Of a DNA stretch of 64,000 bases, positions 3,956 to 64,000 are shown piece after piece. Position 1 is the first letter of the stretch, and each line of letters begins with the position of its first letter. Source of the DNA: Salipiger abyssi (lineage in GTDB: Bacteria > Pseudomonadota > Alphaproteobacteria > Rhodobacterales > Rhodobacteraceae). The notes under the pieces were generated by a model. The model made no database searches, was not told where the DNA came from, and saw only the letters and a list, made by a program, of their open reading frames with translations. The stretch spans positions 1 through 64,000 of the forward strand of contig NZ_CP015093.1 in assembly GCF_001975705.1 (NCBI RefSeq). Reading direction: 5' to 3'. A program made the translations under genes and the position numbers.

Positions 3956-5788
3956 TCACGCTGCCTCGGCCGGCTGTTTGACGCCGTCGGCGATCCGCTT
4001 CAGATCCGCGTCTTCCAGCGTCTCGCGCTCCAGCAGTTCGGCCGAAGAGCTTTCCAGCAACGCGCGGTTCTCGTCCAGAAGCGCGAGTGTGCGCTCGAAA
4101 ATGCTGTCGATCACGTCCTTTACCGCCTGATCCATGCGTTCGGCAGTGGCGTCGCTGTAGCGACGATTCAGCCACGAGCCCTGGTCGCCCTGACCCAGGA
4201 AATTGCCACGTTCGGTGTCGTAGGCCACGTGGCCCAGTTCGTCGTCCATGCCGTAGCGCGCCACCATCGACCGCGCGATGTCGGTGGCGCGGGCGAGATC
4301 GTCGGAGGCGCCGGTCGAAAGGTGGCCATAGATGATCTTTTCCGCCGCGCGGCCGCCCAGCAGGACGGCGATCTTGTTCTCCAGCTCCTCGCGGGTCATC
4401 AGGTAACGGTCCTCGGTCGGCCGCTGGATCGTGTAGCCGAGTGCGCCGATGCCGCGCGGGATGATGGAGACCTTGTGCACTTCGTCCACGCCCGGCAGGG
4501 CCATGCCGACGATGGCGTGCCCCATCTCGTGATGGGCGACGATCTCGCGCTCCTTCTCATTCAGCCGACGGTTCTTCTTTTCCAGCCCGGCGACGATGCG
4601 CTCTACCGCTTGCGTGAAATCCTGCATCTCGACGTGGGTAGCCCGGCGCCGTGTCGCCATCAGTGCGGCCTCGTTCACCAGGTTTGCTAGGTCCGCGCCG
4701 GAAAACCCCGTGGTCAGCGCCGCGATCTGGTCCGGGTCGACGCCATCGGCCACCTTGATCTTCTTCATGTGCACTTCGAGAATCTGCACCCGCCCGGCGC
4801 GGTCGGGGCGGTCCACCAGCACCTGCCGGTCGAAACGGCCCGCGCGCAGCAACGCCGGGTCGAGGATTTCGGGCCGGTTCGTTGCGGCCAGCAGAACGAC
4901 GCCCTCGGTCGGATCGAAACCGTCGAGTTCGGTCAGAAGCTGGTTCAACGTCTGCTCGCGTTCGTCATGGCCCCCGCCGGGATGCTGGCCCGCGGCGCGG
5001 GACCGGCCAAGCGCGTCCAATTCGTCCACGAAAATGATGGCCGGCGCTGCCTTCCTCGCCTGCTCGAAGAGGTCGCGTACCCGCGCGGCGCCGACGCCCA
5101 CGAACATCTCCACGAATTCCGAGCCGGATATCGAGTAGAAAGGCACGCCCGCCTCGCCGGCAACGGCCTTGGCCAGCAACGTCTTGCCGGTGCCGGGCGG
5201 GCCGACGAGAAGCACGCCCTTGGGCATCCGCGCGCCCAGGCCGCTGTAATGCTCGGGGTCCTTCAGGAACTCGACGATCTCTTCAAGTTCCTGCTTGGCC
5301 TCGTCCACGCCCGCCACATCGTCGAAACCGACCTTGGTGTCGCTCTCGACATAGATCTTGGCCTTGCTCTTGCCGATCGACATGAAGCCGCCCATCCCCT
5401 GCCGCTCGGCGAACTTGCGGATGAAGAAAATCCAGATGCCGACGAAGACAAGCGCCGGCAGCACCCAGGATAGCAGCGTTGTGAGCCAGGTGTTCTCGAC
5501 CGCCCCGGTATAGGTGATATCGGCCTCTTCAAGACGCTCGATCATGTCGGCGGGCACGGTGGTGGCGACAAAACCGGTCTTGCCGTCCTGCGGCTCGCTG
5601 AACGTGCCGCGGATCGTATCGCTGCCGATCACGACTTCCTCGATGACACCCTCACCGAGATAATCCTCGAACTGGCTGTAGGGGATTGCGGCAATGGTCT
5701 GGGACTGCACCCAGAGATCGCGAAGCAGAACGACCCCGAAGATCGCGAGCAGGACATACCAGAAATTGATCTGTGTTTTCTTGTCCAT
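3956..5788 (-). CDS. ftsH: FtsH-type membrane AAA+ zinc metalloprotease
   Basis: A 610-residue FtsH protease that degrades misfolded membrane and cytosolic proteins at the inner membrane. It has two N-terminal membrane segments (about 10-25 and 103-123), Walker A GPPGTGKT (196-203), Walker [12 protein letters not shown] (about 251-261) and the zinc site HEMGH (420-424). The start was chosen because a strong AGGAGG lies about ten bases upstream, although the frame is open further. It is shorter and clearly distinct in its N-terminus from housekeeping FtsH proteins, as expected for the extra FtsH copies carried on mobile stress islands. It is divergent from the hsp20 operon. Confidence 0.95.
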
Positions 5789-5821
5789 TGGCGGCAATCC
5801 TCCTTTCTTGATGCTGCCAAA

Positions 5822-5850
5822 CATAATTCCTGACACACCCTCTTGACAAG
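5822..5850 (-). promoter_or_regulatory. Candidate heat-shock-type promoter for ftsH
   Basis: On the minus strand there is a CTTGTC box (5850-5845), a 17-base spacer and ATTATG (5827-5822), about 35 bases upstream of the ftsH start. The CTTG core recalls RpoH-dependent -35 boxes in Alphaproteobacteria. The -10 match is weak, so sigma-70 use is equally possible. Confidence 0.35.
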
Positions 5851-6073
5851 ATTTTGCACCCTTCCCAAATGCTTGAGTGCGGGATGCCGCTGAATGGGTC
5901 CCGGAGATGTTGGTGAGATACGAGGCGTGTGCATGATGCAACGCTTCGGTCCCGTCATCGGCCGCGAGGTGCATCTGTTGGCCTTGCGTATCGAAACACG
6001 TGGTCGCCATGCGTCTTCGTGCAGGCTCGCAACCGGGCCCCTCCCTTCGCGACAGTCCCGCAACGTGAAACGC

Positions 6074-6092
6074 GGTCCGCCCGCTGCGGACC
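6074..6092 (+). promoter_or_regulatory. Perfect hairpin in the hsp20 5' region
   Basis: GGTCCGC and GCGGACC form a perfect 7-bp stem with a five-base loop, 32 bases before the first hsp20 start and just upstream of its AGAGGAGG ribosome site. It lies in the 336-base non-coding gap between ftsH and hsp20, where I see no gene. It could be an operator or a 5'-UTR structure. It does not hide the ribosome site itself, so a classical RNA thermometer is not shown. Confidence 0.4.
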
Positions 6093-6124
6093 CCCGATGT
6101 TGTGACCAGGAAGAGGAGGATACG

Positions 6125-6571
6125 ATGCTGAACTACGGACTGTCCCAGGCGCAATGGGATCCCTTCGCGGAACTGCGCCAGCTTCAATCGCAGATGAACC
6201 GCATGTTCGAAGGCGGCGGGCGTAGCCAGCGTGCAAGCGATGGCAACTGGCCCCCGGTCAACATGTGGCTGGGCGACGAAAGCGTGGTCGTCACCGCCGA
6301 GATGCCCGGTGTGGGCAAGGACGACATCGACCTGACGGTGCGCGAGAACACCCTGATCATTTCGGGCAAGCGCAATCCGTCCACCGATGACGAAGATGCC
6401 GCATGGCATCGTCGCGAGCGCCCGCATGGCGAGTTCTCACGTTCCGTCCGCCTGCCGCTGCGCGTTGATCCCGACAAGGTCGAGGCACGCGCGAAGAACG
6501 GCGTGCTGGAGATCGAGATGGGCCGCCCCGATGCGGAACGGCCGCGCAAGATCAAGGTCAAGGCAAGCTGA
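6125..6571 (+). CDS. Small heat-shock protein, Hsp20/alpha-crystallin family (copy 1)
   Basis: A 148-residue Hsp20 holdase that binds unfolding proteins and keeps them refoldable. The alpha-crystallin domain spans roughly residues 41-135, with the AEMPGVGKDDID strand and the conserved NGVLEIEM motif near the C-terminus. The N-terminal WDPFAELRQLQSQMNRMF is typical of class A bacterial Hsp20. The start follows a strong GAGGAGG. It is the first of three consecutive hsp20 genes in one operon ahead of clpK. The three paralogues are divergent in sequence, so they are not recent duplicates. Confidence 0.93.
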   Translation: MLNYGLSQAQWDPFAELRQLQSQMNRMFEGGGRSQRASDGNWPPVNMWLGDESVVVTAEMPGVGKDDIDLTVRENTLIISGKRNPSTDDEDAAWHRRERPHGEFSRSVRLPLRVDPDKVEARAKNGVLEIEMGRPDAERPRKIKVKAS

Positions 6572-6598
6572 CAGCTGAAACGAGAGGAGGAAAGAACC

Positions 6599-7000
6599 AT
6601 GGCAAACGAAATGCAGAAAACCGGCGGCGATGTGGCCCGGTCCGAAGCGGAAGAAACCCGCGATACCGGCCCGACTTTCCGTCCCGCCACGGACATCTTC
6701 GAGAAGGACGATGTGGTGACGCTGACCATCGACATGCCGGGCGTTGTCCCGGACAGCGTCGATGTCTCGGTCGAGAACCGCTCGCTCACGGTGCGGGGCA
6801 CGATCGAGGCGCCCGTGCCCGAAGGCTATCGGCGCATCTATGCAGAATACGCGCCCGGCACCTTCGAGCGGGCCTTCAGCCTGCCCGACACCATCGACGC
6901 CGATAAGATCGACGCCACCCATCGTGACGGCGTCCTCACGCTCACCCTGAAGAAGAGCGAGGCCGCCAAGCCGAAACAGATCAAGGTCAAGGCCGCCTGA
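6599..7000 (+). CDS. Small heat-shock protein, Hsp20 family (copy 2)
   Basis: A 133-residue Hsp20 with a short acidic N-terminus and an alpha-crystallin domain from about residue 28 to the end. The markers are TIDMPGVVPDSVDV and the HRDGVLTLTLKK strand; in other members this is A-x-x-x-x-G-V-L. It lacks the WDPF-type N-terminus of its two neighbours, which suggests a different oligomeric partner role. It starts at an ATG preceded by AGAGGAGG and lies 27 bases after copy 1, clearly in the same transcript. Confidence 0.92.
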   Translation: MANEMQKTGGDVARSEAEETRDTGPTFRPATDIFEKDDVVTLTIDMPGVVPDSVDVSVENRSLTVRGTIEAPVPEGYRRIYAEYAPGTFERAFSLPDTIDADKIDATHRDGVLTLTLKKSEAAKPKQIKVKAA

Positions 7001-7037
7001 GGCGACCCGGACCGAAACAGGAAAGGAGGAAATGACA

Positions 7038-7520
7038 ATGGCATTCAGCGATCTCATTCCCTGGGGCCGCGACCGCAACCAGCCGTCCGGCCGACGCAAT
7101 GAAGACGACAACCCCTTGATGTCGCTCCAGCGCGACCTCAACCGCGTGTTCGAGGATTTCTGGAGCCGGTTCGACAGCCCATTCGGCAGCATGGCCACCA
7201 ATGGGCCGCGCACCGACATCTCGGAAACCGACGAGGCGATGCTGGTCTCGGTCGATCTGCCCGGCCTCGACGACAAGGATGTCGAGGTGAACGTCACCGA
7301 CGACATGCTTACGATCCGCGGCGAGCGCGAGGAGAAGGCCGAGAAGGATGGCTTCACCTCGCAGTCCCGGCGCAGCTTCCACCGGATGATCCCGGTGCCG
7401 CCGGGCGTGGACGCCGAAAAGGCCGAGGCGGAGTTCAAGCGCGGCGTGCTGACCGTGACCCTGCCCAAGACCGAGGAGGCCAAGGCGCGCGTCAAGCGGA
7501 TCGACGTCAAGTCCGGCTGA
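7038..7520 (+). CDS. Small heat-shock protein, Hsp20 family (copy 3)
   Basis: A 160-residue Hsp20 beginning MAFSDLIPWG, with the N-terminal motif SLQRDLNRVFEDFW, the alpha-crystallin core VDLPGLDDKDVEV and the closing KRGVLTVTLPK. An ATG six bases earlier is in frame, but AGGAGG sits only two bases before it and eight before the chosen start, so the second ATG is favoured. It is the third gene of the hsp20 run and is followed by a GC-rich hairpin before clpK. Confidence 0.92.
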   Translation: MAFSDLIPWGRDRNQPSGRRNEDDNPLMSLQRDLNRVFEDFWSRFDSPFGSMATNGPRTDISETDEAMLVSVDLPGLDDKDVEVNVTDDMLTIRGEREEKAEKDGFTSQSRRSFHRMIPVPPGVDAEKAEAEFKRGVLTVTLPKTEEAKARVKRIDVKSG

Positions 7521-7529
7521 CTTGGCTAG

Positions 7530-7553
7530 GGGCGCGGGGATTTGTCCGCGCCC
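7530..7553 (+). terminator. GC-rich hairpin after the hsp20 operon
   Basis: GGGCGCGG and CCGCGCCC form a perfect 8-bp stem with an eight-base loop, ten bases after the last hsp20 stop. There is no T run, so it may terminate only partly and let some transcription reach clpK. Confidence 0.6.
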
Positions 7554-7674
7554 TGACTCGCCCCATTTCACTGCTCGGCGTGTCGCTAACCGCCACATTT
7601 TGATGCCGGTCAAGGCAAGGCTCCACAACTTTGAATAAAATTGCGCCATAGCAAATAGTCAGGAGGAAGACAGG

Positions 7675-10518
7675 ATGGCAAACGGAATCTGTGACATCTG
7701 CAAGCGCCGCCCGGCCTCGTTCCGGGCGCAGGTATCGGTCAATGGCGAACGCCAGGTAATGGAGCTTTGTGACGATGATTACCGCAAGCTCGCACGCCAG
7801 CAGCGGCGGTCGTCCTCGCCGCTGGAATCGCTCTTCGGCGGCGGATCGCTCTTCGACGAATTCTTCGGTGACAGCCCGCTTGGCGGGATGGACCGGCGTA
7901 TCGGCGACGAAAGCGAAGGTCAGCGCATTCCCGTAAATCGTGGCAGTCGGCGCGGCCAGGGCGGGGCGAGCATCGCCGATCGTCTTAGCGAACAGGGCAA
8001 CAAGCTCTTGCAGGAGGCCGCGCAGAAAGCAGGGGAACTCGGCCGCTCCGAGGTCGATACCGAACATCTGCTCTTCGCGCTGAGTCACAGCGATGTGGTC
8101 AGGACGCTGCTGGAGCAATTCAAGATCGACGTGGACGACCTGCGCCGCCAGATCGACAAAGAGGCCCCTCGCGGCGAAGACAAACAGGATGGCGAGATCG
8201 GCGTCAGCCCGCGTCTGAAGGATGCGCTGAACCGCGCCTTCGTCGCCTCGAACGAGCTGGGCCATTCCTATGTCGGCCCGGAACACCTGCTGATCGGACT
8301 CGCCGAAGAAGGCGATGGCCTGGCCGCCGACATCCTTCGCAAGCTCGGCCTGACGCCGCAGTCGCTGCGCCAGCAGGTCACGAAGGTTGTGGGCCAGGGG
8401 GCCGAGGAGGGTCGGGTCGAGACGCCCTCGAACACGCCCGACCTCGATGAATTTTCTCGCGACCTCACGAAACTGGCTCGCGACGGCAAGCTCGACCCCG
8501 TTATCGGCCGCGCCCGCGAGATCGAGACCACGATCGAGGTTCTGGCGCGGCGCAAGAAGAACAACCCCGTGCTGATCGGCGAGCCCGGCGTCGGCAAGAC
8601 CGCGATCATCGAGGGCCTGGCACAACGGATCGTGGCTGGCGAGGTGCCCGAAGCTCTGCGCGACAAGCGGTTGGTCGAGCTGAACATCAACTCGATGGTC
8701 GCCGGATCGAAATATCGCGGCGAATTCGAGGAACGCATCCAGAAAGTGCTGAAGGAGATCGAGGCCAACAAGGACGATCTCGTGCTCTTTATCGACGAAT
8801 TGCACACGATCATGGGCGCGGGCCAGGGCGGCGGCGAAGGCGGGCTCGATGTGGCCAATACCTTCAAGCCGGCGCTGGCACGGGGCGAGTTGAACCTGAT
8901 TGGTGCCACCACACTCAATGAATACCAGAAGCACATCGAGAAGGACGCGGCACTGGAGCGGCGTTTCCAGCCGGTCTATGTCGATGAACCCACGGTGGCG
9001 CAGACCATCATGATCCTGCGCGGCCTGCGCGACACGCTGGAGTCTCACCACAAGGTGACGATCACCGACGAGGCCATCGTCGCCGCGGCCGAATTGTCCG
9101 ATCGCTATGTCACCGGCCGCTTCATGCCCGACAAGGCCATCGACCTGATCGACCAGGCCGCTGCGCGCGTGAAAATCAGCGCCACCGCACGGCCGGTGGA
9201 CGTGCAGGAGCTGGAAGCGGAGACGAAGCAAATCCAGCGCGAACAGGATTACGCCGCCGCCCGCAAGCAATTCGACCGTGCAGGCGAACTGAAGAAGGAA
9301 CTGGAGGAAAAGCAGACCGAACTGGATGCCCTGCTGGAAACCTGGAAACGCGACCGTGCCTCGGCCAGCGCCGAGGTGCGCACCGACCACATCGCGCAGA
9401 TCGTCTCCAAGCTGACCGGCATCCCCGTCACCGACCTGACGACCGAGGAGCGCGAGAAGCTGCTGAAGCTGGAGGACCAGTTGCACGAGCGCGTCATCGG
9501 CCAGGATCAGGCGATCGGTGCGGTGGCCGACGCGGTGCGGCTGGCGCGCGCGGGGTTGCGCGAAGGGTCCGCCCCCACGGCGACATTCATGTTCCTCGGG
9601 CCCACCGGCGTCGGCAAGACCGAACTCGCCAAGGCGCTGGCCGAGACCGTCTATGGCGACGAGGATGCGATGATCCGCATCGACATGTCGGAATACGGCG
9701 AGCGCCACGCCGTCGCGCGGCTGGTGGGCGCCCCGCCGGGTTACGTGGGCTATGACGAGGGCGGCCAGCTGACCGAGCGCGTGCGCCGCCGCCCCTATTC
9801 GGTGGTTCTGCTGGACGAGATCGAAAAGGCCCACGCGGATGTCTACAACATCCTGTTGCAGGTCTTCGACGACGGGCGGCTGACCGACGGCAAGGGCCGG
9901 GTGGTGGATTTCACCAACACCATCATCATCGCCACCTCGAACCTCGGCTCGGACATCATCCAGCGCAACCTCAAGAAGCGCGGCACGAAGGAGTTCGACG
10001 AGGGCAAGCAACGGGGTGAGTTGATGGAGGTGCTACGGCAGCATTTCCGCCCCGAGTTCATCAACCGGATCGACGAGATCATCGTCTTCCATTCGCTCAA
10101 CCGCCCGGAAATCCGCCGGATCGTGGAGTTGCAGCTCGACCGCGTGGCGCGCACCGCGCTTGGTCAGGGCGTCGAGATGGCGTTCGATGAAAGCGTGACC
10201 GATCATTTCGCCGCCGTGGGCTTCCAGCCCGAATTCGGTGCCCGCGAATTGCGCCGCCTGATCCGGTCGGAACTGGAAACCGAACTGGCCCGCGCAATGC
10301 TCTCCGGCTCGGTCGAGGATGGCGACAAGGTCCGCGCCGCCTGGTCGGCGGAGGAGCAGAAGATCACCTTCGAGAAACAGGAGGTCGCGGAGGAGGACAG
10401 CGCCGAACCGGAAGACAAACCGGCTGACACGTCCGGCACCGCCGATGGCGATGAAGACAGTGAAGCCACGGACGCAAAAGGGGAGTCCGATGCGTCCGAG
10501 GAGGCTTCCGCGAAGTAA
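7675..10518 (+). CDS. clpK: ClpK/ClpG-type AAA+ disaggregase
   Basis: A 947-residue HSP100 unfoldase. It starts with a Cys-bearing segment (CDICKRR near residue 6, another Cys at 32), as seen in island-borne ClpK/ClpG_GI but not in ClpB or ClpC. Clp-N repeats follow (about 100-235). The first AAA module has Walker A GEPGVGKT (302-309), the middle region is short, the second Walker A is GPTGVGKT (about 642-649), and the tail is long and acidic. Its length matches the roughly 950 residues of ClpK/ClpG_GI. These proteins dissolve heat-aggregated protein and confer strong thermotolerance. The start is supported by AGGAGG. The Hsp20 genes upstream are its usual partners. Confidence 0.93.
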
Positions 10519-58046: not shown

Positions 58047-58442
58047 TCAGGAACGCGGAGGCTCCGTGTCGGGTCGTGTCCCACCTGACAGGCGGCCCGA
58101 GCGAAATAGAAGGCGCTCGGCATCGCGAATGCTGCCGGTTTCGCGGGCGGACTTGGCCCAGACCGAGATCGGGAAATCGCCCGTGAACAGAAGATCCCGC
58201 TCGATACCCATGCCGAAGGGCAGCCGAATAGAGCGCAGTTCGTTGAGGCTCCAGGAGCCAAGTTCCGGGTAGCCAATGTCGGCCAGGCCAAACATGATGT
58301 CGCCGTCCTCGTCGAGCTCAGTCGCGAGCCAGACACCGGCGCCAAAGGGATTGAAGAACTTCACGACCGGAATGTGATCCTGATCACGATTGTGGCCATT
58401 CGCCAGCAAACGGCCACGCTGTGTGTCGGTCAGGAGGATCAT
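58047..58442 (-). CDS. DUF2958 protein
   Basis: A 131-residue DUF2958 protein: MILLTDTQRGRLLANGHN, DHIPVVKFFNPFGAGVWLAT, FGLADIGYPELGSWSLNEL and PFGMGIERDLLF. It is widespread next to ArdC in conjugative elements, with unknown function. Its start overlaps the ardC stop by four bases. Confidence 0.9.
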   Translation of the reverse strand: MILLTDTQRGRLLANGHNRDQDHIPVVKFFNPFGAGVWLATELDEDGDIMFGLADIGYPELGSWSLNELRSIRLPFGMGIERDLLFTGDFPISVWAKSARETGSIRDAERLLFRSGRLSGGTRPDTEPPRS

Positions 58443-59401
58443 GCCGCGGCCCTCCCTTCCGTCGGGGCCTGCCGCTCAACATCGGTGCTGTCGTCGGGCA
58501 GATGGGCCAGCAGCCAGTCGGCCGCCTTGCTGGCCTGCGAGGCGGCGCGGACGATCGCGCGGGAATCCTCGCGCATCACCTCCAGCCAGGAGCCGATATA
58601 ATCGGCGTGGCGCACGGTCGGGACGATCCCGAGCAAGGCGCAACAGAACGCGCTTGAAATCTCGGCGATCAGTTCCTCGAAGGCGTATTTCTTCGTGCCG
58701 AAACTCCCCGAGAAGTCCCGCCCCAACCGTGAGGCATGTCCTGTCGCGTGCCCCATCTCGTGCAGGGCGGTTCGGTGCCAGTTGATCGGCTCGAAATAGG
58801 CCTGCGGAGGTGGCACCTGCACGTAATCGAGCGCGGGAACATAGAAGGCGCGGTTTCCACCGATCCGGAAGTCGATGCCGGTCGCCGCGATCAATGCCTC
58901 GACCCGCGGCTCGATCAGCCCGAGCGGCGGTGGCGGTGCCTCGACGGCTATGTCGTCGGGCAGACCCTCGCATTGCGCCGCGTTGAACACGGTAAAGCGC
59001 TTCAGGAACGGGATGCTGCTTGCGTCTTCCCCTGTCTCCCGGGCGCGGCGCTTCTTGTCTTCAGGCGTGAAACGGTCGGCATAGACGACGGTTGTGCCCC
59101 GCTCACCCTTGCGGACATTGCCGCCGAGCGACAGCGCCTGGCGGAAGGTCAGCCAGTGCTGGGTTGGATAGCCCTGCTGGATCACGGCGCCCCAGAGGAT
59201 CAGGACATTGATCCCGGAATACTGCCGACCCGTGCTGGCGTTGCGCGGCATGGCGAGCGGCGCTTGTGCCGCCGCAGTCCCCCAGGGCTGGACCCAGGGC
59301 AACCGGCCTTCCTCCAGCTCGGCGATGATCTTGTCGGTGATGTCGTCATAAAGGTTTGTGCGCGGACCGCTTTTGCGGGCTGCGCGATGCTCTCTGGCCA
59401 T
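58439..59401 (-). CDS. ardC: ArdC-family antirestriction protein
   Basis: A 320-residue ArdC. The N-terminal ssDNA-binding domain (about 14-145: NLYDDITDKIIAELEEG, YSGINVLILW, VRKGERGTTVVYADRF) is followed by a metalloprotease-like domain with HEMGH (214-218) and the downstream Glu in FEELIAEISSAF. ArdC shields incoming single-stranded DNA from restriction. It is preceded by leader copy A and coupled to DUF2958. Confidence 0.93.
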   Translation of the reverse strand: MAREHRAARKSGPRTNLYDDITDKIIAELEEGRLPWVQPWGTAAAQAPLAMPRNASTGRQYSGINVLILWGAVIQQGYPTQHWLTFRQALSLGGNVRKGERGTTVVYADRFTPEDKKRRARETGEDASSIPFLKRFTVFNAAQCEGLPDDIAVEAPPPPLGLIEPRVEALIAATGIDFRIGGNRAFYVPALDYVQVPPPQAYFEPINWHRTALHEMGHATGHASRLGRDFSGSFGTKKYAFEELIAEISSAFCCALLGIVPTVRHADYIGSWLEVMREDSRAIVRAASQASKAADWLLAHLPDDSTDVERQAPTEGRAAA

Positions 59402-59414
59402 TGGAATGATCTCC

Positions 59415-59486
59415 GCGACAGGCGCCGGAGGCCTTTCCTCCAGCCCTCAACCCGTCACGGAAAACCCGCCCGCACTCTCACTCTCA
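59415..59486 (-). repeat. Backbone leader repeat, copy A (before ardC)
   Basis: GCGACAGGCGCCGGAGGCC, TTTCCTCCAGCCCTCAACC, CGTCACGG and CCCGCACTCTCACTCTCA in order, starting 13 bases upstream of the ATG. The rest of the 360-base gap to 59762 holds no gene I can support. Confidence 0.75.
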
Positions 59487-59761
59487 GGGGGCGTTGCGGG
59501 GTCTCCCCGCTGATGGGGGTGCGTCGGCAACGCCAGTGCCGACCAGGGGGAAGCCGTTCCCTCAGACAATCCTCGCATTCAGCCGAGCCAAGCGCAAAAA
59601 GGCAAAAGCCAACACTCGCGAGCCCCAATCCCCGACGTGTTGTAATCCCCAGGATATCTGCGCTTATCTGACACGCAATCGCGGTGCCTGCTTTCCAGCG
59701 CCAGACGCCTTTCTTCCCCAAGGCTCGGGCTCAAACCCACCGGGCAACAAATGAGGACCAA

Positions 59762-60079
59762 ATGACGGATATCGATCTTAACGCCTTGTCGCTTCCCGAG
59801 CTGAAGCAGTTGCAAAAGAATGTTGCGAAGGCCATCGCCAGTTTCGAGGCCCGTCGCAAGGCCGAGGCCCGCGCCAAGGTTGACGACTTGGCCCGCGAAC
59901 TCGGTTTCAGTTTCGACGAGCTTGCGGAAGCGGCTCCCACCCGGAAACGCGCGGCGTCCGCGCCCAAGTACCGCCATCCGGAGAACGCCGAAATCACCTG
60001 GTCCGGCCGTGGGCGCAAACCGGCATGGATCGCCGAGGCGCTGGCTTCGGGAAAATCGCTAGACGATTTTGCGATCTGA
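59762..60079 (+). CDS. H-NS/HvrA-like nucleoid protein
   Basis: A 105-residue H-NS family protein: an N-terminal oligomerisation helix (LPELKQLQKNVAKAIASFEA) and the C-terminal DNA-binding motif KYRHPENAEITWSGRGRKP. Such proteins bind AT-rich DNA and silence foreign genes; a copy on a mobile element can hide it from the host or replace titrated H-NS. It is one of the few backbone-side genes on the plus strand and lies just right of ardC. Confidence 0.9.
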   Translation: MTDIDLNALSLPELKQLQKNVAKAIASFEARRKAEARAKVDDLARELGFSFDELAEAAPTRKRAASAPKYRHPENAEITWSGRGRKPAWIAEALASGKSLDDFAI

Positions 60080-60093
60080 CCGGGGGACCTGTC

Positions 60094-60711
60094 TTGTACC
60101 AGCCCGCGAATGCCGTCCGCCTGCATGTCTTTCTCGCGGAGATTGACCCGCCGATCTGGCGGCGACTTGTCGTGCCGTCGGGCTGGACGCTCGACAGGCT
60201 GCATCTGGTGCTGCAGGCCGCGTTCAGCTGGACCGACAGCCATCTGCATGAGTTCCGGATCGGCGGGCTGCGCTATGGCGACCCCGATCAGCTTGAGGAT
60301 GGCTTCGGCGGGCCGCAGACCTTCGACTACACCGGGGTCAGGCTGGGGGATTTCACCGGCCAGGATCTGACCTTCACTTACCTTTACGACTTTGGCGATG
60401 ACTGGACCCATGTGATCCGGATCGAGGAGTGGCTATCCCTCGATCCCCTGCCCCGCCACGCAGAATGCACCGAAGGGGCCCGAGCCCGGCCGCCCGAGGA
60501 CGTCGGCGGCCCCTGGTCCTATGCCGATTTCCTCAAGACCATTCGCGACCCGAACCATGAGGACCACAGCTCCAACCTTCGCTGGGCCGGCGGACATTTC
60601 GATCCGGACTGGTTCGACATCGAGCTGATCAACAAGGATCTGCGCAACACCTTCCGCAAGAACACCAGCCGACGCCTGCATCAGCCCAAGCCAAAGCCTT
60701 CTGGTCGGTGA
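60094..60711 (+). CDS. pRiA4b ORF-3-like protein
   Basis: A protein of about 205 residues in the plasmid pRiA4b ORF-3 (PRiA4_ORF3) family: VRLHVFLAEIDPPIWRRLVV, LVLQAAFSWTDSHLHEFRI, YLYDFGDDWTHVIRIEE and GGPWSYADFLKTI. Its function is unknown. No ATG fits. The TTG after GGGGGA, 14 bases past the H-NS-like stop, is the best start, although the frame is open further into that gene. Confidence 0.82.
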   Translation: MYQPANAVRLHVFLAEIDPPIWRRLVVPSGWTLDRLHLVLQAAFSWTDSHLHEFRIGGLRYGDPDQLEDGFGGPQTFDYTGVRLGDFTGQDLTFTYLYDFGDDWTHVIRIEEWLSLDPLPRHAECTEGARARPPEDVGGPWSYADFLKTIRDPNHEDHSSNLRWAGGHFDPDWFDIELINKDLRNTFRKNTSRRLHQPKPKPSGR

Positions 60712-61041
60712 GCGCAGAGGGCTCGGCCCTCAAGGCGATGCCGCGGGCCGGGATGCGCCTCTTCCTGCCGGCAGCACCAATGTGGCAGCGCCCCAGCGTG
60801 ATCCCGGGATGTCTGCACCGCAAAAGGTGCACTGGTCTTGCGGCCTCTCCAGAAGCGTTGCTTGGCGTCGAGGCTCCCGCCCGACTTACCCAAGCACGGG
60901 CCCTCTACCCCCTTTCACACGCTTCGGAGCGTCTCTCCGACCCAACGTACCCGTCCGATTTGCGCTCCATGCTATCCGCTTCCCCGCCAACCCGCTGCGC
61001 GCCCTTCTCCCAACTATGCCATCGTGCTTCACTCCGGGATC
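60712..61041. other. Intergenic region, no gene supported
   Basis: 330 bases between the pRiA4b-type gene and the PrtN-like gene. Open frames here lack ribosome sites. No clear promoter or hairpin stands out. Confidence 0.4.
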
Positions 61042-61305
61042 ATGAACACGGCGTTTCTCTTGATAGCAATGTATTCCGGGCGACCGATCATTCCCGCTGA
61101 GGATGTCGCCAAGGATTTTTTCGGTCTGAGTACCGACAAGTTCATCCGCAAAGTCTCGGCCGGTTCCATCGCCCTCCCCCTCGTCCGCATGGAAGCGTCG
61201 CAGAAATGCGCCAAAGGCGTCCATATCGACGATCTGGCCGAGTACCTGGACAAGAGGCGGGCTGCAGCCGTCAAGGAATGCCTGCAACTGCAGGGTCTTC
61301 GGTAA
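61042..61305 (+). CDS. PrtN-like pyocin activator family protein
   Basis: An 87-residue protein starting MNTAFLLIAMYSGRPIIPAE, with FGLSTDKFIRKVSAGSIALP and KCAKGVHIDDLAEYLDKRRA. This matches the pyocin activator PrtN family, small HTH regulators often found near integrases or excision modules. It may activate transfer or excision genes of this element. It marks the approach to the element's right end. Confidence 0.85.
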   Translation: MNTAFLLIAMYSGRPIIPAEDVAKDFFGLSTDKFIRKVSAGSIALPLVRMEASQKCAKGVHIDDLAEYLDKRRAAAVKECLQLQGLR

Positions 61306-61400
61306 GCGTGTTCCCCTCTGAAAATCGCCGAAGGCCAGGCTGCTACCCATGGCACCAAGCGACCACCCTCCTCGCCTCGCCCGACAGCACGGATTGAATT

Positions 61401-61430
61401 CTGTCAGAAAACTGCGTATATTTCTGACAG
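61401..61430. promoter_or_regulatory. Palindromic operator before abiEi
   Basis: CTGTCAGAAA and TTTCTGACAG form a perfect 10-bp inverted repeat with a ten-base centre, ten bases before the abiEi ATG and overlapping the likely promoter. AbiEi-type antitoxins are known to autorepress through inverted repeats. Confidence 0.75.
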
Positions 61431-61440
61431 GAGAACGATC

Positions 61441-62034
61441 ATGCAGCGCCTTGCCGAACAGATATTGACCCATGCAGAGGGACTTCCGGAAGGAGCGCCA
61501 CTTGCCGCAAAGGGCCTGCTGCACCTCGGCAGCCGTGCCGGTGTGGATCAGGCTTTGTCGCGCCTTGCCGAGCGCGGCCAGTTGATCCGTGCCGGGCGCG
61601 GCGTTTACCTGCGACCGATCAAAAGCCGGTTTGGAACGCGCGCTCCGTCCGTGGAACAGGCCGTCGAGGCCCTCGCGGCGCAACGTGGCGAAGTCATCGT
61701 TCCAACCGGCGCCGCCGAAGCGAATGCACTCGGCCTGACCACGCAAGTGCCTGTTCGCTCCGTGTACCTGACCTCGGGTCGCAGCCGCACGCTCTCATTG
61801 GGCAAACAACTCGTCGAACTGCGCCACGCCCCCCGATGGCAACTCGCCCTGGGGAAGAGGCCGGCTGGCAGTGCTGTTCGCGCCCTGGCCTGGCTTGGGC
61901 CGGAACAGGCAGAGACAGCTCTTAGATCGCTGAAGCAGAGACTGCCCGCAGCGGCGTTTGACGAATTGGTAACCGCAGCACCGCAGTTCCCGACCTGGCT
62001 TGCACGCAGTGTCGGAAAGGCGGCGCATGTCTGA
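61441..62034 (+). CDS. AbiEi-type (type IV) antitoxin, DUF6088 family
   Basis: A 197-residue antitoxin with an N-terminal winged HTH (LGSRAGVDQALSRLAERGQL, RAGRGVYLRP) and the DUF6088/AbiEi C-terminal domain (EVIVPTGAAEANALGLTTQV, VYLTSGRSRTLSLGKQLVEL). It represses its own operon and antagonises the AbiEii nucleotidyltransferase. The gene looks complete. The partner toxin gene starts in the last eight bases but is truncated. Confidence 0.9.
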   Translation: MQRLAEQILTHAEGLPEGAPLAAKGLLHLGSRAGVDQALSRLAERGQLIRAGRGVYLRPIKSRFGTRAPSVEQAVEALAAQRGEVIVPTGAAEANALGLTTQVPVRSVYLTSGRSRTLSLGKQLVELRHAPRWQLALGKRPAGSAVRALAWLGPEQAETALRSLKQRLPAAAFDELVTAAPQFPTWLARSVGKAAHV

Positions 62035-62209
62035 ACCCTTCCTGTCTTTGCCGCCTGCAGACCGCAAGGAAGCCCTGGCCGTCGCTGCAGATCGCTCCGG
62101 GCGGCCCGCGCACTTGCTCGAAAAGGACGTCTGGCTTGTCTGGGCCCTTCAAACCCTCTTCGGTTCCGAGCTTGGTGAGCTTCACAAAACACATGGAAAC
62201 ATTCTATGA
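62027..62209 (+). pseudogene. AbiEii toxin, truncated after about 50 residues
   Basis: Starts MSEPFLSLPPADRKEALAVA and runs as an AbiEii N-terminus to VWALQTLFGSELGE, where family members continue into the nucleotidyltransferase site HLVFKGGTSLSK. Here it reads LHKTHGNIL and stops. The GS-type catalytic motif is missing, so no active toxin is made. The break marks a recombination junction at about 62175. Confidence 0.85.
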
Positions 62210-62527
62210 TCTTCTCGATGAACGATCCGAAACAGGAGATTGGTTCGGAGGATAGTGTATGGGAAACGATCATGGCTGCCGCACTTGCCGACCCCCACCG
62301 CATAACCTGTCGCCTCAGAATTTTAGCAGCAAAGTCGTTGACGCACCCCAGTCACTTCATGAAGCCATAGGCCACTGTCGCATAATTTCGATGGAGGATG
62401 GCCCGGTGGCCCGCAGGAAGAAGCATGTCGCATAAACATCACTATCGAGCAACCTCTCGCGCCCGGAGCCAATGAAATTTCCCTTCCTTTTCAATACGCA
62501 AGCGCTAGACTCCAGACTTATTAATTC
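62210..62527. other. Junk or recombined DNA with a short direct repeat
   Basis: No gene is supported. TGTCGCATAA occurs twice in direct orientation, at 62376-62385 and 62426-62435. Half-sites of this kind occur in resolvase res regions of Tn3-type elements, but two copies alone do not establish that. Confidence 0.4.
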
Positions 62528-62728
62528 TTAAAGCCAGAAGATGACAGTTGCGGCGAGATACACGGCGGACAGAAAGACCTTCCAGCATCTGTCGTAGCGG
62601 GTCGCAACGCGGCGCCAATCCTTGAGCTTGCCGAACATGATCTCGATAAGGTTGCGCCGCTTGTAGCGGCGCTTGTCGTATTTGGCGGGCTTGTCTCGGG
62701 ACTTCCGGCCCGGGATGCAGGGCTTGTT
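62528..62728 (-). pseudogene. IS5-family transposase remnant (C-terminal end)
   Basis: The last 65-70 residues of an IS5-type transposase (IS427-like second ORF): IPGRKSRDKPAKYDKRRYKR, NLIEIMFGKLKDWRRVATRY and VFLSAVYLAATVIFWL, including the final DDE Glu in IEIMFG. The 5' part is missing. Upstream codons of the open frame belong to unrelated DNA. It sits directly between the AbiE remnant and the Argonaute gene. Confidence 0.8.
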
Positions 62729-62807
62729 GCCCTTGTGTACTGGCGTGAACGTATCTTGCGGAGACACAAGTTTATGACTGCGCCCGTATGCACCACGCAA
62801 AATATCT

Positions 62808-64000
62808 TTATATATAATGCCGAAACGGCAACGGCTTCGAACTGACTTCCGGAATCGCCGTCAGTATCTCACCCACATCGTCCGCGAAGCGAAGCGTCAC
62901 GGGATACCCATCCCCATAAATGCAGGTGTTAAAATTGAGCTTTGTCAGAGAAAGAATATCCTCAAGCACCTGCTCGATCAGCGTTTCGCCGAATACGATC
63001 TTCACCTTGAGCGGCGTCGGTATCTCGCGCCCCGGATAGGTCTTGAGCTTCGGAACATAACCGGAGCTCCATAGGAACGCGTTGCGGTGATCGACCTTGA
63101 GGGAAAGTCCGCGCATGACGCCCCGCTTACCCTCCTCCCGGAACAGTTTCAGGTCGTTGGGCCGCTTGATCTGGATACCGCTGACTTTCGTGCCTTCGGG
63201 CGCCCCGTCGCGGAAGCCCTCGATTTCCTCGCGGTTGAAGTTCGTCCGCCCGTGGATGAACAGCTCTTTGGGCGCTTCACCGTGCCAGTTCCGGTAGCTA
63301 TCGACACAACGCCTGACGATCTCGGCGGCCTGGTCTTTCGGGAGGTGGAATTCGCCTGGCCTGTCCGAGGCCCATGAACCCACCGATCCTTTAAAGACGA
63401 TGCCCTCCCCCGTATGGAGGAACATCTGCGCGCCGCAGCAGGCCTCGTACTCGTCCCGGGGGCTGTTCGTGCGCTTGAAGACGAGGCCTATATAGCAGAC
63501 CGCTTCGCGGATATCGGCGAGGGTCCAGGGCTTCGCGCCAGCCTTGTAATAGATGGCCGTCGAGAGATTCCAGGCGATCGTCGCCTCGTCCTGCACGTTG
63601 CGGATCGGCTTGCCGATGCTGTTGAGGTGTTTCTCGGGCGCAATGGTTGTCTGGCGAACGATTTGCGTTACCGCTTCACAACCGAGAAGCCGTGCCTTGA
63701 GCTGGTTGTGGAAGTGGTTCTCGAAGCGGTGCTTTTCGGCGGCCTCGTTGATGTCATCGAAGAGGTCGGGATTTTCCCAGAGCCTCATCGCCTTACGGTG
63801 CGAGAGCGCGGTGTCGCCGGTCACCCCCGCCGCCTTGGAAATCGTCTGGTTCGGCCGACACAGCTTCCAGAGCTCTTCCGGAACCACCACGAACCAGAGC
63901 GCGACCTTGGCGTCCTCCTCCTCGACCCACCGCCGGATGCGGCCCGCGAATAGATCGACCGTGTCATAGACGCGCTGATGCGCATCCGTATTGCGGATCG
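62808..64000 (-). CDS. Prokaryotic Argonaute, catalytically degenerate PIWI domain (5' end outside window)
   Basis: The minus-strand frame is open to the window edge; an apparent start at 63890 is an internal GTG. The C-terminal 390 residues form a PIWI domain: LSTAIYYKAGAKPWTLADIR, CYIGLVFKRTN, KELFIHGRTNFNREEIEGF, FADDVGEILT and the terminal PLPFRHYI. Active Argonautes have Asp where this has the Leu-Val of IGLVF, and RDGR where this has HGRT, so the DEDX tetrad is lost, as in RsAgo-like long-B proteins. Such proteins bind guide RNA and target invader DNA, often with a partner effector. None is visible downstream. Confidence 0.9.
   Translation of the reverse strand, partial: IRNTDAHQRVYDTVDLFAGRIRRWVEEEDAKVALWFVVVPEELWKLCRPNQTISKAAGVTGDTALSHRKAMRLWENPDLFDDINEAAEKHRFENHFHNQLKARLLGCEAVTQIVRQTTIAPEKHLNSIGKPIRNVQDEATIAWNLSTAIYYKAGAKPWTLADIREAVCYIGLVFKRTNSPRDEYEACCGAQMFLHTGEGIVFKGSVGSWASDRPGEFHLPKDQAAEIVRRCVDSYRNWHGEAPKELFIHGRTNFNREEIEGFRDGAPEGTKVSGIQIKRPNDLKLFREEGKRGVMRGLSLKVDHRNAFLWSSGYVPKLKTYPGREIPTPLKVKIVFGETLIEQVLEDILSLTKLNFNTCIYGDGYPVTLRFADDVGEILTAIPEVSSKPLPFRHYI

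Follow-up and report, generated by a model that had tools for sequence, protein, structure and literature searches.

SPARTA systems, in which a short prokaryotic Argonaute (pAgo) and a TIR-APAZ protein are encoded in one operon, form a well-known class whose structures and mechanism have already been published. The described systems closest to the locus presented here are those of Crenotalea (Thermoflavifilum) thermophila (Crt; PDB 8ifk, 8u7b, 8isy) and Maribacter polysiphoniae (Map; PDB 8fex, 8i87), both with the same short pAgo and TIR-APAZ operon. SPARSA (SIR2-APAZ) and SPARDA (nuclease-APAZ) also combine an APAZ partner with an inactive short pAgo. Long-B pAgos (RsAgo; BPAN, BPAS and BPAM) have N and PAZ domains and an inactive PIWI domain, and provide effector-dependent abortive infection (PMC10620215).

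The active SPARTA assembly depends on contacts between TIR domains. In the Map study, substitutions D44A and R114Q at the intrastrand interface, as well as R54A and D111A at the interstrand interface, resulted in loss of assembly and of most or all activity (PMC10474274), and the Crt study describes R114 and N116 as contacting the BB loop of the neighbouring subunit (PMC11156904). From the text of these papers, we infer that residues 44 and 114 are in physical contact.

The DNA analysed here, called the window, is a stretch of 64,000 nucleotides (contig C5:1-64000) from the 5.26-Mb genome of Salipiger abyssi; positions above 64000 refer to the contig (L002 position + 62000). The Argonaute gene at the end of this window and the TIR-APAZ gene overlapping it very probably constitute a complete SPARTA operon acting by RNA-guided NAD(P) destruction, a function assigned by analogy with the solved systems. 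Sequence comparison, AlphaFold/Foldseek modelling and residue tests concur in identifying a new SPARTA of known class. What had been read as an orphan long-B Argonaute would, judging from its sequence, be a complete defence operon that probably works and travels as cargo beside conjugation genes.

In common with the Crt and Map systems, the operon encodes a dead PIWI tetrad, a guide 5'-phosphate pocket and a sensor-loop Trp in the Argonaute, and the catalytic Glu and Trp of the TIR domain within a TIR-APAZ fold that is, in this case, predicted. Identity to the Crt proteins is 43% (219/506) for the Argonaute and 32% (137/429) for TIR-APAZ. Unlike in both solved systems, the charges at TIR positions 44 and 114 are exchanged, position 54 is acidic instead of basic, Q35 and Y37 of the Argonaute are lost, and Phe and Trp replace Tyr105 of the TIR domain and Tyr148 of the Argonaute, respectively. 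SPARSA and SPARDA differ in that the effector here is a TIR domain (the APAZ protein carries TIR, not the fused SIR2 of SPARSA), and their sequence and structure matches are far weaker.

Argonaute gene and its catalytic and guide residues

The two genes of the operon are located as follows:

62808..64000, minus strand: C-terminal part of a short pAgo (MID-PIWI), in an open frame that continues past the window end
Contig 64330-65802, minus strand: TIR-APAZ gene of 490 aa, with ATG at 65802 and stop at 64330, wholly outside the window

The preliminary description of the window had recognised a prokaryotic Argonaute at 62808-64000, ending in PLPFRHYI. Both the identification and the terminal residues proved right: the protein matched the PADLOC profile pAgo_I with E 2.8e-201 and aligned end to end with the PDB short pAgos of solved SPARTA (E 1.8e-137 to 4.7e-134), and on these E values a chance match can be regarded as excluded as the origin of the call. 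The best non-SPARTA PDB chain followed at E 7e-46, and no chain as long as a long pAgo appeared before one of 748 aa at E 5.6e-10; a Pfam search with the Argonaute protein gave no match up to E 1. Position 64000 is the limit of the window and not of the gene, since the contig continues, and its extension past this point, as had been proposed, yielded the complete gene (62808-64346, minus strand, 512 aa, stop at 62808), the full-length product remaining an Argonaute. The start codon is likely the ATG at 64346, directly upstream of which a GGGGAGGG run was read by eye. Within the longer ORF of 533 aa, residues 34-533 align to residues 2-507 of the solved short pAgos. A protein of 512 aa that matches 507-aa short pAgos from end to end consists of MID and PIWI only and leaves no space for the N and PAZ domains, which long-B pAgos keep and this Argonaute lacks.

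Residues are numbered according to Crt SPARTA (PMC11156904) and were carried over through printed alignments, the register being sound because V284, Y328, R362 and N484 were recovered correctly in the Crt chain. Conservation was counted in the 109 clade Argonautes of at least 470 aa among the best 120 of 3526 matches. The PIWI tetrad of the Argonaute reads V/F/R/D at positions 284/328/362/484, the first of these being V in 108 of the 109 clade members. The loss of the tetrad had been correctly noticed from the window, although the residues named there (Leu/Val and Gly/Arg in place of the catalytic Asp) were near the actual ones without matching them exactly; the conclusion that the protein should not cut stands on the tetrad as now read, and the Argonaute is likely non-cutting. 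The guide 5'-phosphate pocket is kept in full (H207, K211, N468 and the C-terminal Ile). Its three internal residues and the sensor-loop W320 are invariant throughout the 109 full-length sequences, and the C-terminal position 507 is Ile in 106 of them and Leu in 3. Crt residues R72, K325, R364 and N439 are absent. At the dimer interface, K314 is kept and Q35/Y37 are replaced by D/P, in columns that are variable within the clade.

TIR-APAZ partner and operon structure

The upstream search for an effector gene led directly to the partner. The preliminary description had expected a nuclease, Sir2 or membrane protein, as in long-B operons, either upstream beyond the window or lost; the upstream position was correct, and the type and the possible loss were not, as the gene at 64330-65802 encodes a TIR-APAZ protein. 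It lies immediately upstream of the Argonaute gene on the same strand, with a 17-nt overlap, and both frames are open and intact. The product carries a TIR_2 domain (Pfam) and matches PADLOC Aga_TIR-PNTD1-PNTD2 (E 2.1e-144) and the TIR-APAZ chains of SPARTA in the PDB (E 8.9e-61).

An AlphaFold model based on an alignment of 58 sequences had a mean pLDDT of 83.3 and replaced a single-sequence model with a mean of 36.6. In a Foldseek search against the PDB, the best 35 of the 50 best matches listed were all SPARTA, and SPARSA and SPARDA matches started only at E 5.3e-12. Compared with whole SPARTA chains (ranks 1-32), the monomer model gave TM-scores of 0.40-0.61 and rmsd of 12.6-17.9 A; for the three partial chains at ranks 33-35, TM-scores normalised by target were 0.80-0.86. 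Adjacency, strand, overlap, PADLOC match and predicted fold thus all agree with a TIR-APAZ partner in the operon.

The NADase residues Glu77 (the catalytic Glu, E101 in the numbering of the present protein), Trp46, Phe45 and Thr11 are kept in the TIR domain, as are G42 and N116. In 123 clade rows (the best 120 TIR-APAZ matches listed, the present copy and the L011 and L012 copies described below), E77 and W46 were found in 122, the remaining row being a gap, and Phe105 in 120.

Divergence from the two related copies was dominated by synonymous change. For the Argonaute, dS/dN was 1.20/0.10 against Roseovarius (dN/dS about 0.08) and 1.33/0.24 against Bradyrhizobium (about 0.18); for TIR-APAZ, the corresponding values were 1.05/0.16 (about 0.15) and 1.90/0.38 (about 0.20). 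By these estimates both genes are under purifying selection, with dS above 1 and thus near saturation.

A scan of the operon for the sigma-70 consensus found no promoter. A TATAAT motif, seen by eye directly before the TIR-APAZ start, is not exactly kept in the Roseovarius copy, and no promoter is assigned. The C-terminal 30 residues of TIR-APAZ are acidic, with a net charge count of 11 here, against a median of 15 in the best 120 clade matches and 12 in the best 120 Crt/Map-like matches; this tail has pLDDT below 50 in the AlphaFold model and may act as a nucleic-acid mimic while the system is at rest.

Proposed mechanism and exchanged charges at the TIR-TIR contact

By analogy with the solved systems, the MID-PIWI Argonaute would provide the guide pocket and sensor loop without cutting, the APAZ domain would replace the N/L1/L2 lobe, and the TIR domain would be the predicted toxin. 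A 5'-phosphorylated guide RNA would load into the Argonaute/TIR-APAZ heterodimer, and its pairing with single-stranded target DNA would shift the sensor loop. Two Argonautes could then dimerise, allowing four TIR domains to stack into a tetramer that would hydrolyse NAD(P)+, with cell death or growth arrest before the invader (a plasmid, phage or rival element) spreads, that is, abortive infection.

The assembly step cannot be assumed residue by residue, because the interface residues Q35/Y37 of the Argonaute and R114 of the TIR domain are not kept. The BB-loop/betaE pair is R68/D137 here versus D44/R114 in Crt, and position 54 has changed from R to D. The TIR alignment register is anchored by the nearly invariant G42, W46 and N116, and the two row sets used for counting were the best 120 of 183 matches and the best 120 of 534 matches. 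Among the best 120 Crt/Map-like TIR-APAZ matches listed, positions 44/114 were D/R and positions 54/111 were R/(E or D) in all 120. In the 123 clade rows defined above, position 44 was R or K in 94, position 114 was D or E in 105, and position 54 was D or E in 108; the acid at position 111 was mostly gone, and position 113 was often basic (50 R and 10 K), so that a basic residue there could take over the role of R114. Read as pairs, positions 44/114 in these 123 rows were +/- in 82, neutral/- in 23 (one of them a gap at 44), +/neutral in 12, neutral/neutral in 5 and -/neutral in 1. Over all 243 rows (both best-120 sets and the three added copies), 120 were -/+, 82 were +/-, 41 had a neutral side and none was like-charged; with 15 further loci, like charges occurred in 0 of 258 sequences.

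In a tree of 32 of the 58 aligned rows, for which the program warned of long branches, a branch with full support sets off the clade of the present copy. A copy on a Sphingomonas plasmid, which belongs to neither clade, has D/R at 44/114 and R/E at 54/111, which suggests that the swap is derived in the branch considered here; this copy is itself weakly placed (87/78, long branch). The exchange is compatible with one change on a single branch and so does not amount to repeated covariation. Within the clade, the two positions do not covary tightly, with 23 acids facing a neutral partner or gap and 12 bases facing a neutral partner. The Sphingomonas copy is one of the 15 further loci; nine others, with the catalytic Glu present, show mixed pairs (P/R, N/H, D/H, P/Q, Y/R), so that beyond the two clades the pair is variable, and the remaining five, with a degenerate TIR domain without the catalytic Glu, are also +/-.

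The exchanged pair, as it appears in the alignments, suggests that the clade forms the same tetramer as in solved SPARTA, which would be held by the reversed pair R68/D137. That this branch rewired its TIR tetramer, with D44-R114 turned round and the polarity of R54-D/E111 also lost, is put forward tentatively, as a possibility that we consider somewhat less probable than its opposite. If it were true, two SPARTA kinds could coexist unmixed in one cell as orthogonal NADase assemblies, and a cassette moving between conjugative elements and islands would bring a private assembly code. The reversed TIR-TIR pair offers a simple and decisive test of the contacts holding the active SPARTA tetramer, and of the coexistence of different SPARTAs without cross-activation. 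In the open-access SPARTA literature searched, no mention of exchanged TIR charges was found.

The same substitutions (Q35/Y37 to D/P in the Argonaute; R114 to D, D44 to R and R54 to D in TIR) could also be taken to mean that the system no longer assembles or fires and is a relic or a repurposed regulator. We consider this improbable, since TIR columns 44, 54 and 114 are mostly altered in the same sense across the clade (best-120 rows) and never carry like charges at 44 and 114, Argonaute positions 35 and 37 belong to variable columns, the catalytic and guide residues vary little or not at all, and dN/dS values are low.

Relatives and mobility of the cassette

The complete SPARTA operon recurs in other bacteria. 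Among the nearest copies, Roseivivax sp. CAU 1761 is represented by its TIR-APAZ record alone, which is 96% identical and has the same exchanged pair. Roseovarius azorensis (L011; Argonaute 84%) and Bradyrhizobium japonicum SZCCT0153 (L012; Argonaute 69%) carry the same two-gene cassette with the same exchanged charge pair. The DNA in common with the Roseovarius locus begins about 39 bp ahead of the TIR-APAZ start codon and ends at the stop codon of the Argonaute gene; the rest of that 12.7-kb locus does not match the window or L002; likewise, the Bradyrhizobium locus gave no match to either outside the two genes. The cassette therefore stands in unrelated surroundings, and the order of TIR-APAZ followed by Argonaute is the same in both loci and in all 12 plasmid loci opened out of 34 listed (the Argonaute start was located by tblastn in 11 and by position in the twelfth, from Aminobacter). 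Among 72,556 plasmid records, 100 carry Argonaute relatives and 34 carry TIR-APAZ; 52 and 27 of these records, respectively, are typed as conjugative. An Argonaute match was present in 6 of 61 genomes (the present one, which is among the 6, and 60 relatives), and a TIR-APAZ profile match with E <= 1e-10 in 4 of 398 genomes of the phylum, the present one included. On these comparisons the operon appears to behave as a compact mobile cassette. Its plasmid copies seem to decay: among the 12 loci, one TIR-APAZ and one Argonaute are each annotated in two pieces, and in one locus the gene after TIR-APAZ is only 552 bp.

Another kind of short pAgo, again accompanied by an APAZ protein, was observed in two loci of the same genus (L004 and L005; genomes G003 and G017) and on the Salipiger plasmid pTPRO2 (L044). 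The TIR domain of this APAZ protein lacks the catalytic Glu and Trp in L004 and L044 (Leu and His instead), and the protein apparently has an additional N-terminal region; the partner is likely a pseudo-TIR with another toxic domain.

Genomic setting of the operon

The SPARTA operon lies between a conjugative side and a neighbouring island, with the following features:

61441..62209, plus strand: abiEi-like antitoxin gene, and codons 1-60 of abiEii without its remaining part
62513..62807, no strand: joint; similarity to L025/L026 stops at 62512
62528-62800, minus strand: transposase remnant (DDE_Tnp_1_2), abutting the Argonaute stop
Contig 67786-80910 (L002:5786-18910): Ssp phosphorothioation module, complete with SspA, SspB, SspC and SspD, and neighbours

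The window encodes a VirD4/TraG-type coupling protein, a RepA-type protein and a protein of DUF3363, which we take to be a relaxase family, which supports the earlier placement of the Argonaute at the edge of a conjugative element; ParB, ArdC and strawberry-notch proteins are encoded as well. Positions 40000-62800 gave partial matches in 170 plasmid records, none covering more than 80%.

The abiEi-like gene (61441-62034) remains in the window, and the match of abiEii ends with codon 60, at 62180. In L025/L026, the counterpart of window positions 62179-62512 comes only after a further stretch of about 1.6 kb, and still ahead of any IS sequence, so that the window lacks this stretch with the rest of abiEii. 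Truncation of abiEii had been noticed correctly, as had the transposase remnant, the label IS5 being that of the preliminary description itself; as a hint of a lost Argonaute partner, the truncation has no bearing. Interruption of abiEii by an insertion sequence was rejected, because the break at 62180 precedes any IS sequence. L025 and L026 have the whole gene (353 aa), and early breaks occur at codon 60 in the window, codon 75 in L027 and codon 94 or before in L028; by these alignments, the abiEii start is evidently a recurrent break point. The abiE region (61300-62520) was matched in 17 of 248 family genomes, the present one included.

The four related stretches L025 to L028, taken from these genomes, have 0.3-3.1-kb pieces of 58129-62512 in common with the window (88-95%) and do not match the contig past 62512, up to position 121000. 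Beyond the abiE joint, L025 carries DUF4297, dGTPase and an SngC/BrxH-like helicase (PADLOC defence-type matches), L028 a DNA methylase and a helicase (PADLOC), and L027 an SspA/DndA-like protein (PADLOC); judged by gene lengths, L026 resembles L025 beyond this point. With different genes past abiE in the four loci, the SPARTA region would seem to be interchangeable cargo attached there, and the abiE joint is possibly an exchangeable defence slot.

On the far side of SPARTA follow PbeC, a 157-aa protein, PbeA, SIR2, DUF262, SspD, SspC, SspB and SspA. The Ssp module is thus accompanied by a PbeC/PbeA pair (CxC-ABC ATPase, HKD-helicase), a SIR2_2 protein and a DUF262 (GmrSD_N) protein, and the latter two may be an effector pair other than SspE. 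The open-access literature searched contained no mention of SPARTA beside an Ssp island.

The SIR2_2 gene (contig 72476-73339) lies in the same island, and its product has a weak match to a SIR2-APAZ profile (PADLOC PDLC02419, residues 110-168 only, E 1.1e-4), which raises the question whether SIR2 is the Argonaute effector, as in SPARSA, and TIR-APAZ an accessory. This is very improbable: the Pfam matches of the 287-aa protein are confined to SIR2 families, its gene is surrounded by DUF262 and Ssp/Pbe genes, opposite-strand genes separate it from SPARTA, and the Argonaute is paired with TIR-APAZ in the Roseovarius and Bradyrhizobium loci and the plasmid loci cited above. With no APAZ in Pfam and only the weak partial PADLOC match, SIR2 was rejected as the effector. 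The reading first given for the window, an RsAgo-like long-B Argonaute binding without cutting, its nuclease, Sir2 or membrane partner lost or elsewhere, shares with the data the dead tetrad and this SIR2 gene, some 7 kb upstream of the operon, but is hardly credible for a 512-aa protein that matches the 507-aa short pAgos along its whole length, into which N and PAZ do not fit, whose top PDB matches are short pAgos and whose adjoining partner is TIR-APAZ.

As to how the island carrying the SPARTA operon is delimited, no tRNA or tmRNA gene marking an insertion site was found in the window or L002. Megablast of L002:4000-20000 returned no plasmid carrying the island; in each of its 16 records the match was limited to the transposase region. 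A composite transposon was rejected, as the remnant at 62.5 kb and a DDE transposase at 81.0 kb have no nucleotide similarity (E 1e-3). Three large same-strand proteins at contig 92664-99709 (L013:11664-18709) gave no Pfam match at E 1e-5; at least one has, by eye, a tyrosine-recombinase-like end, and they are possibly a set of integrases at the island's far end. Near the contig start, an FtsH gene (3956-6427, minus strand) lies next to a gene for a Clp-type double-AAA protein (7675-10518, plus strand), and this part of the window (3956-10518) looks like a stress- or heat-tolerance cluster.
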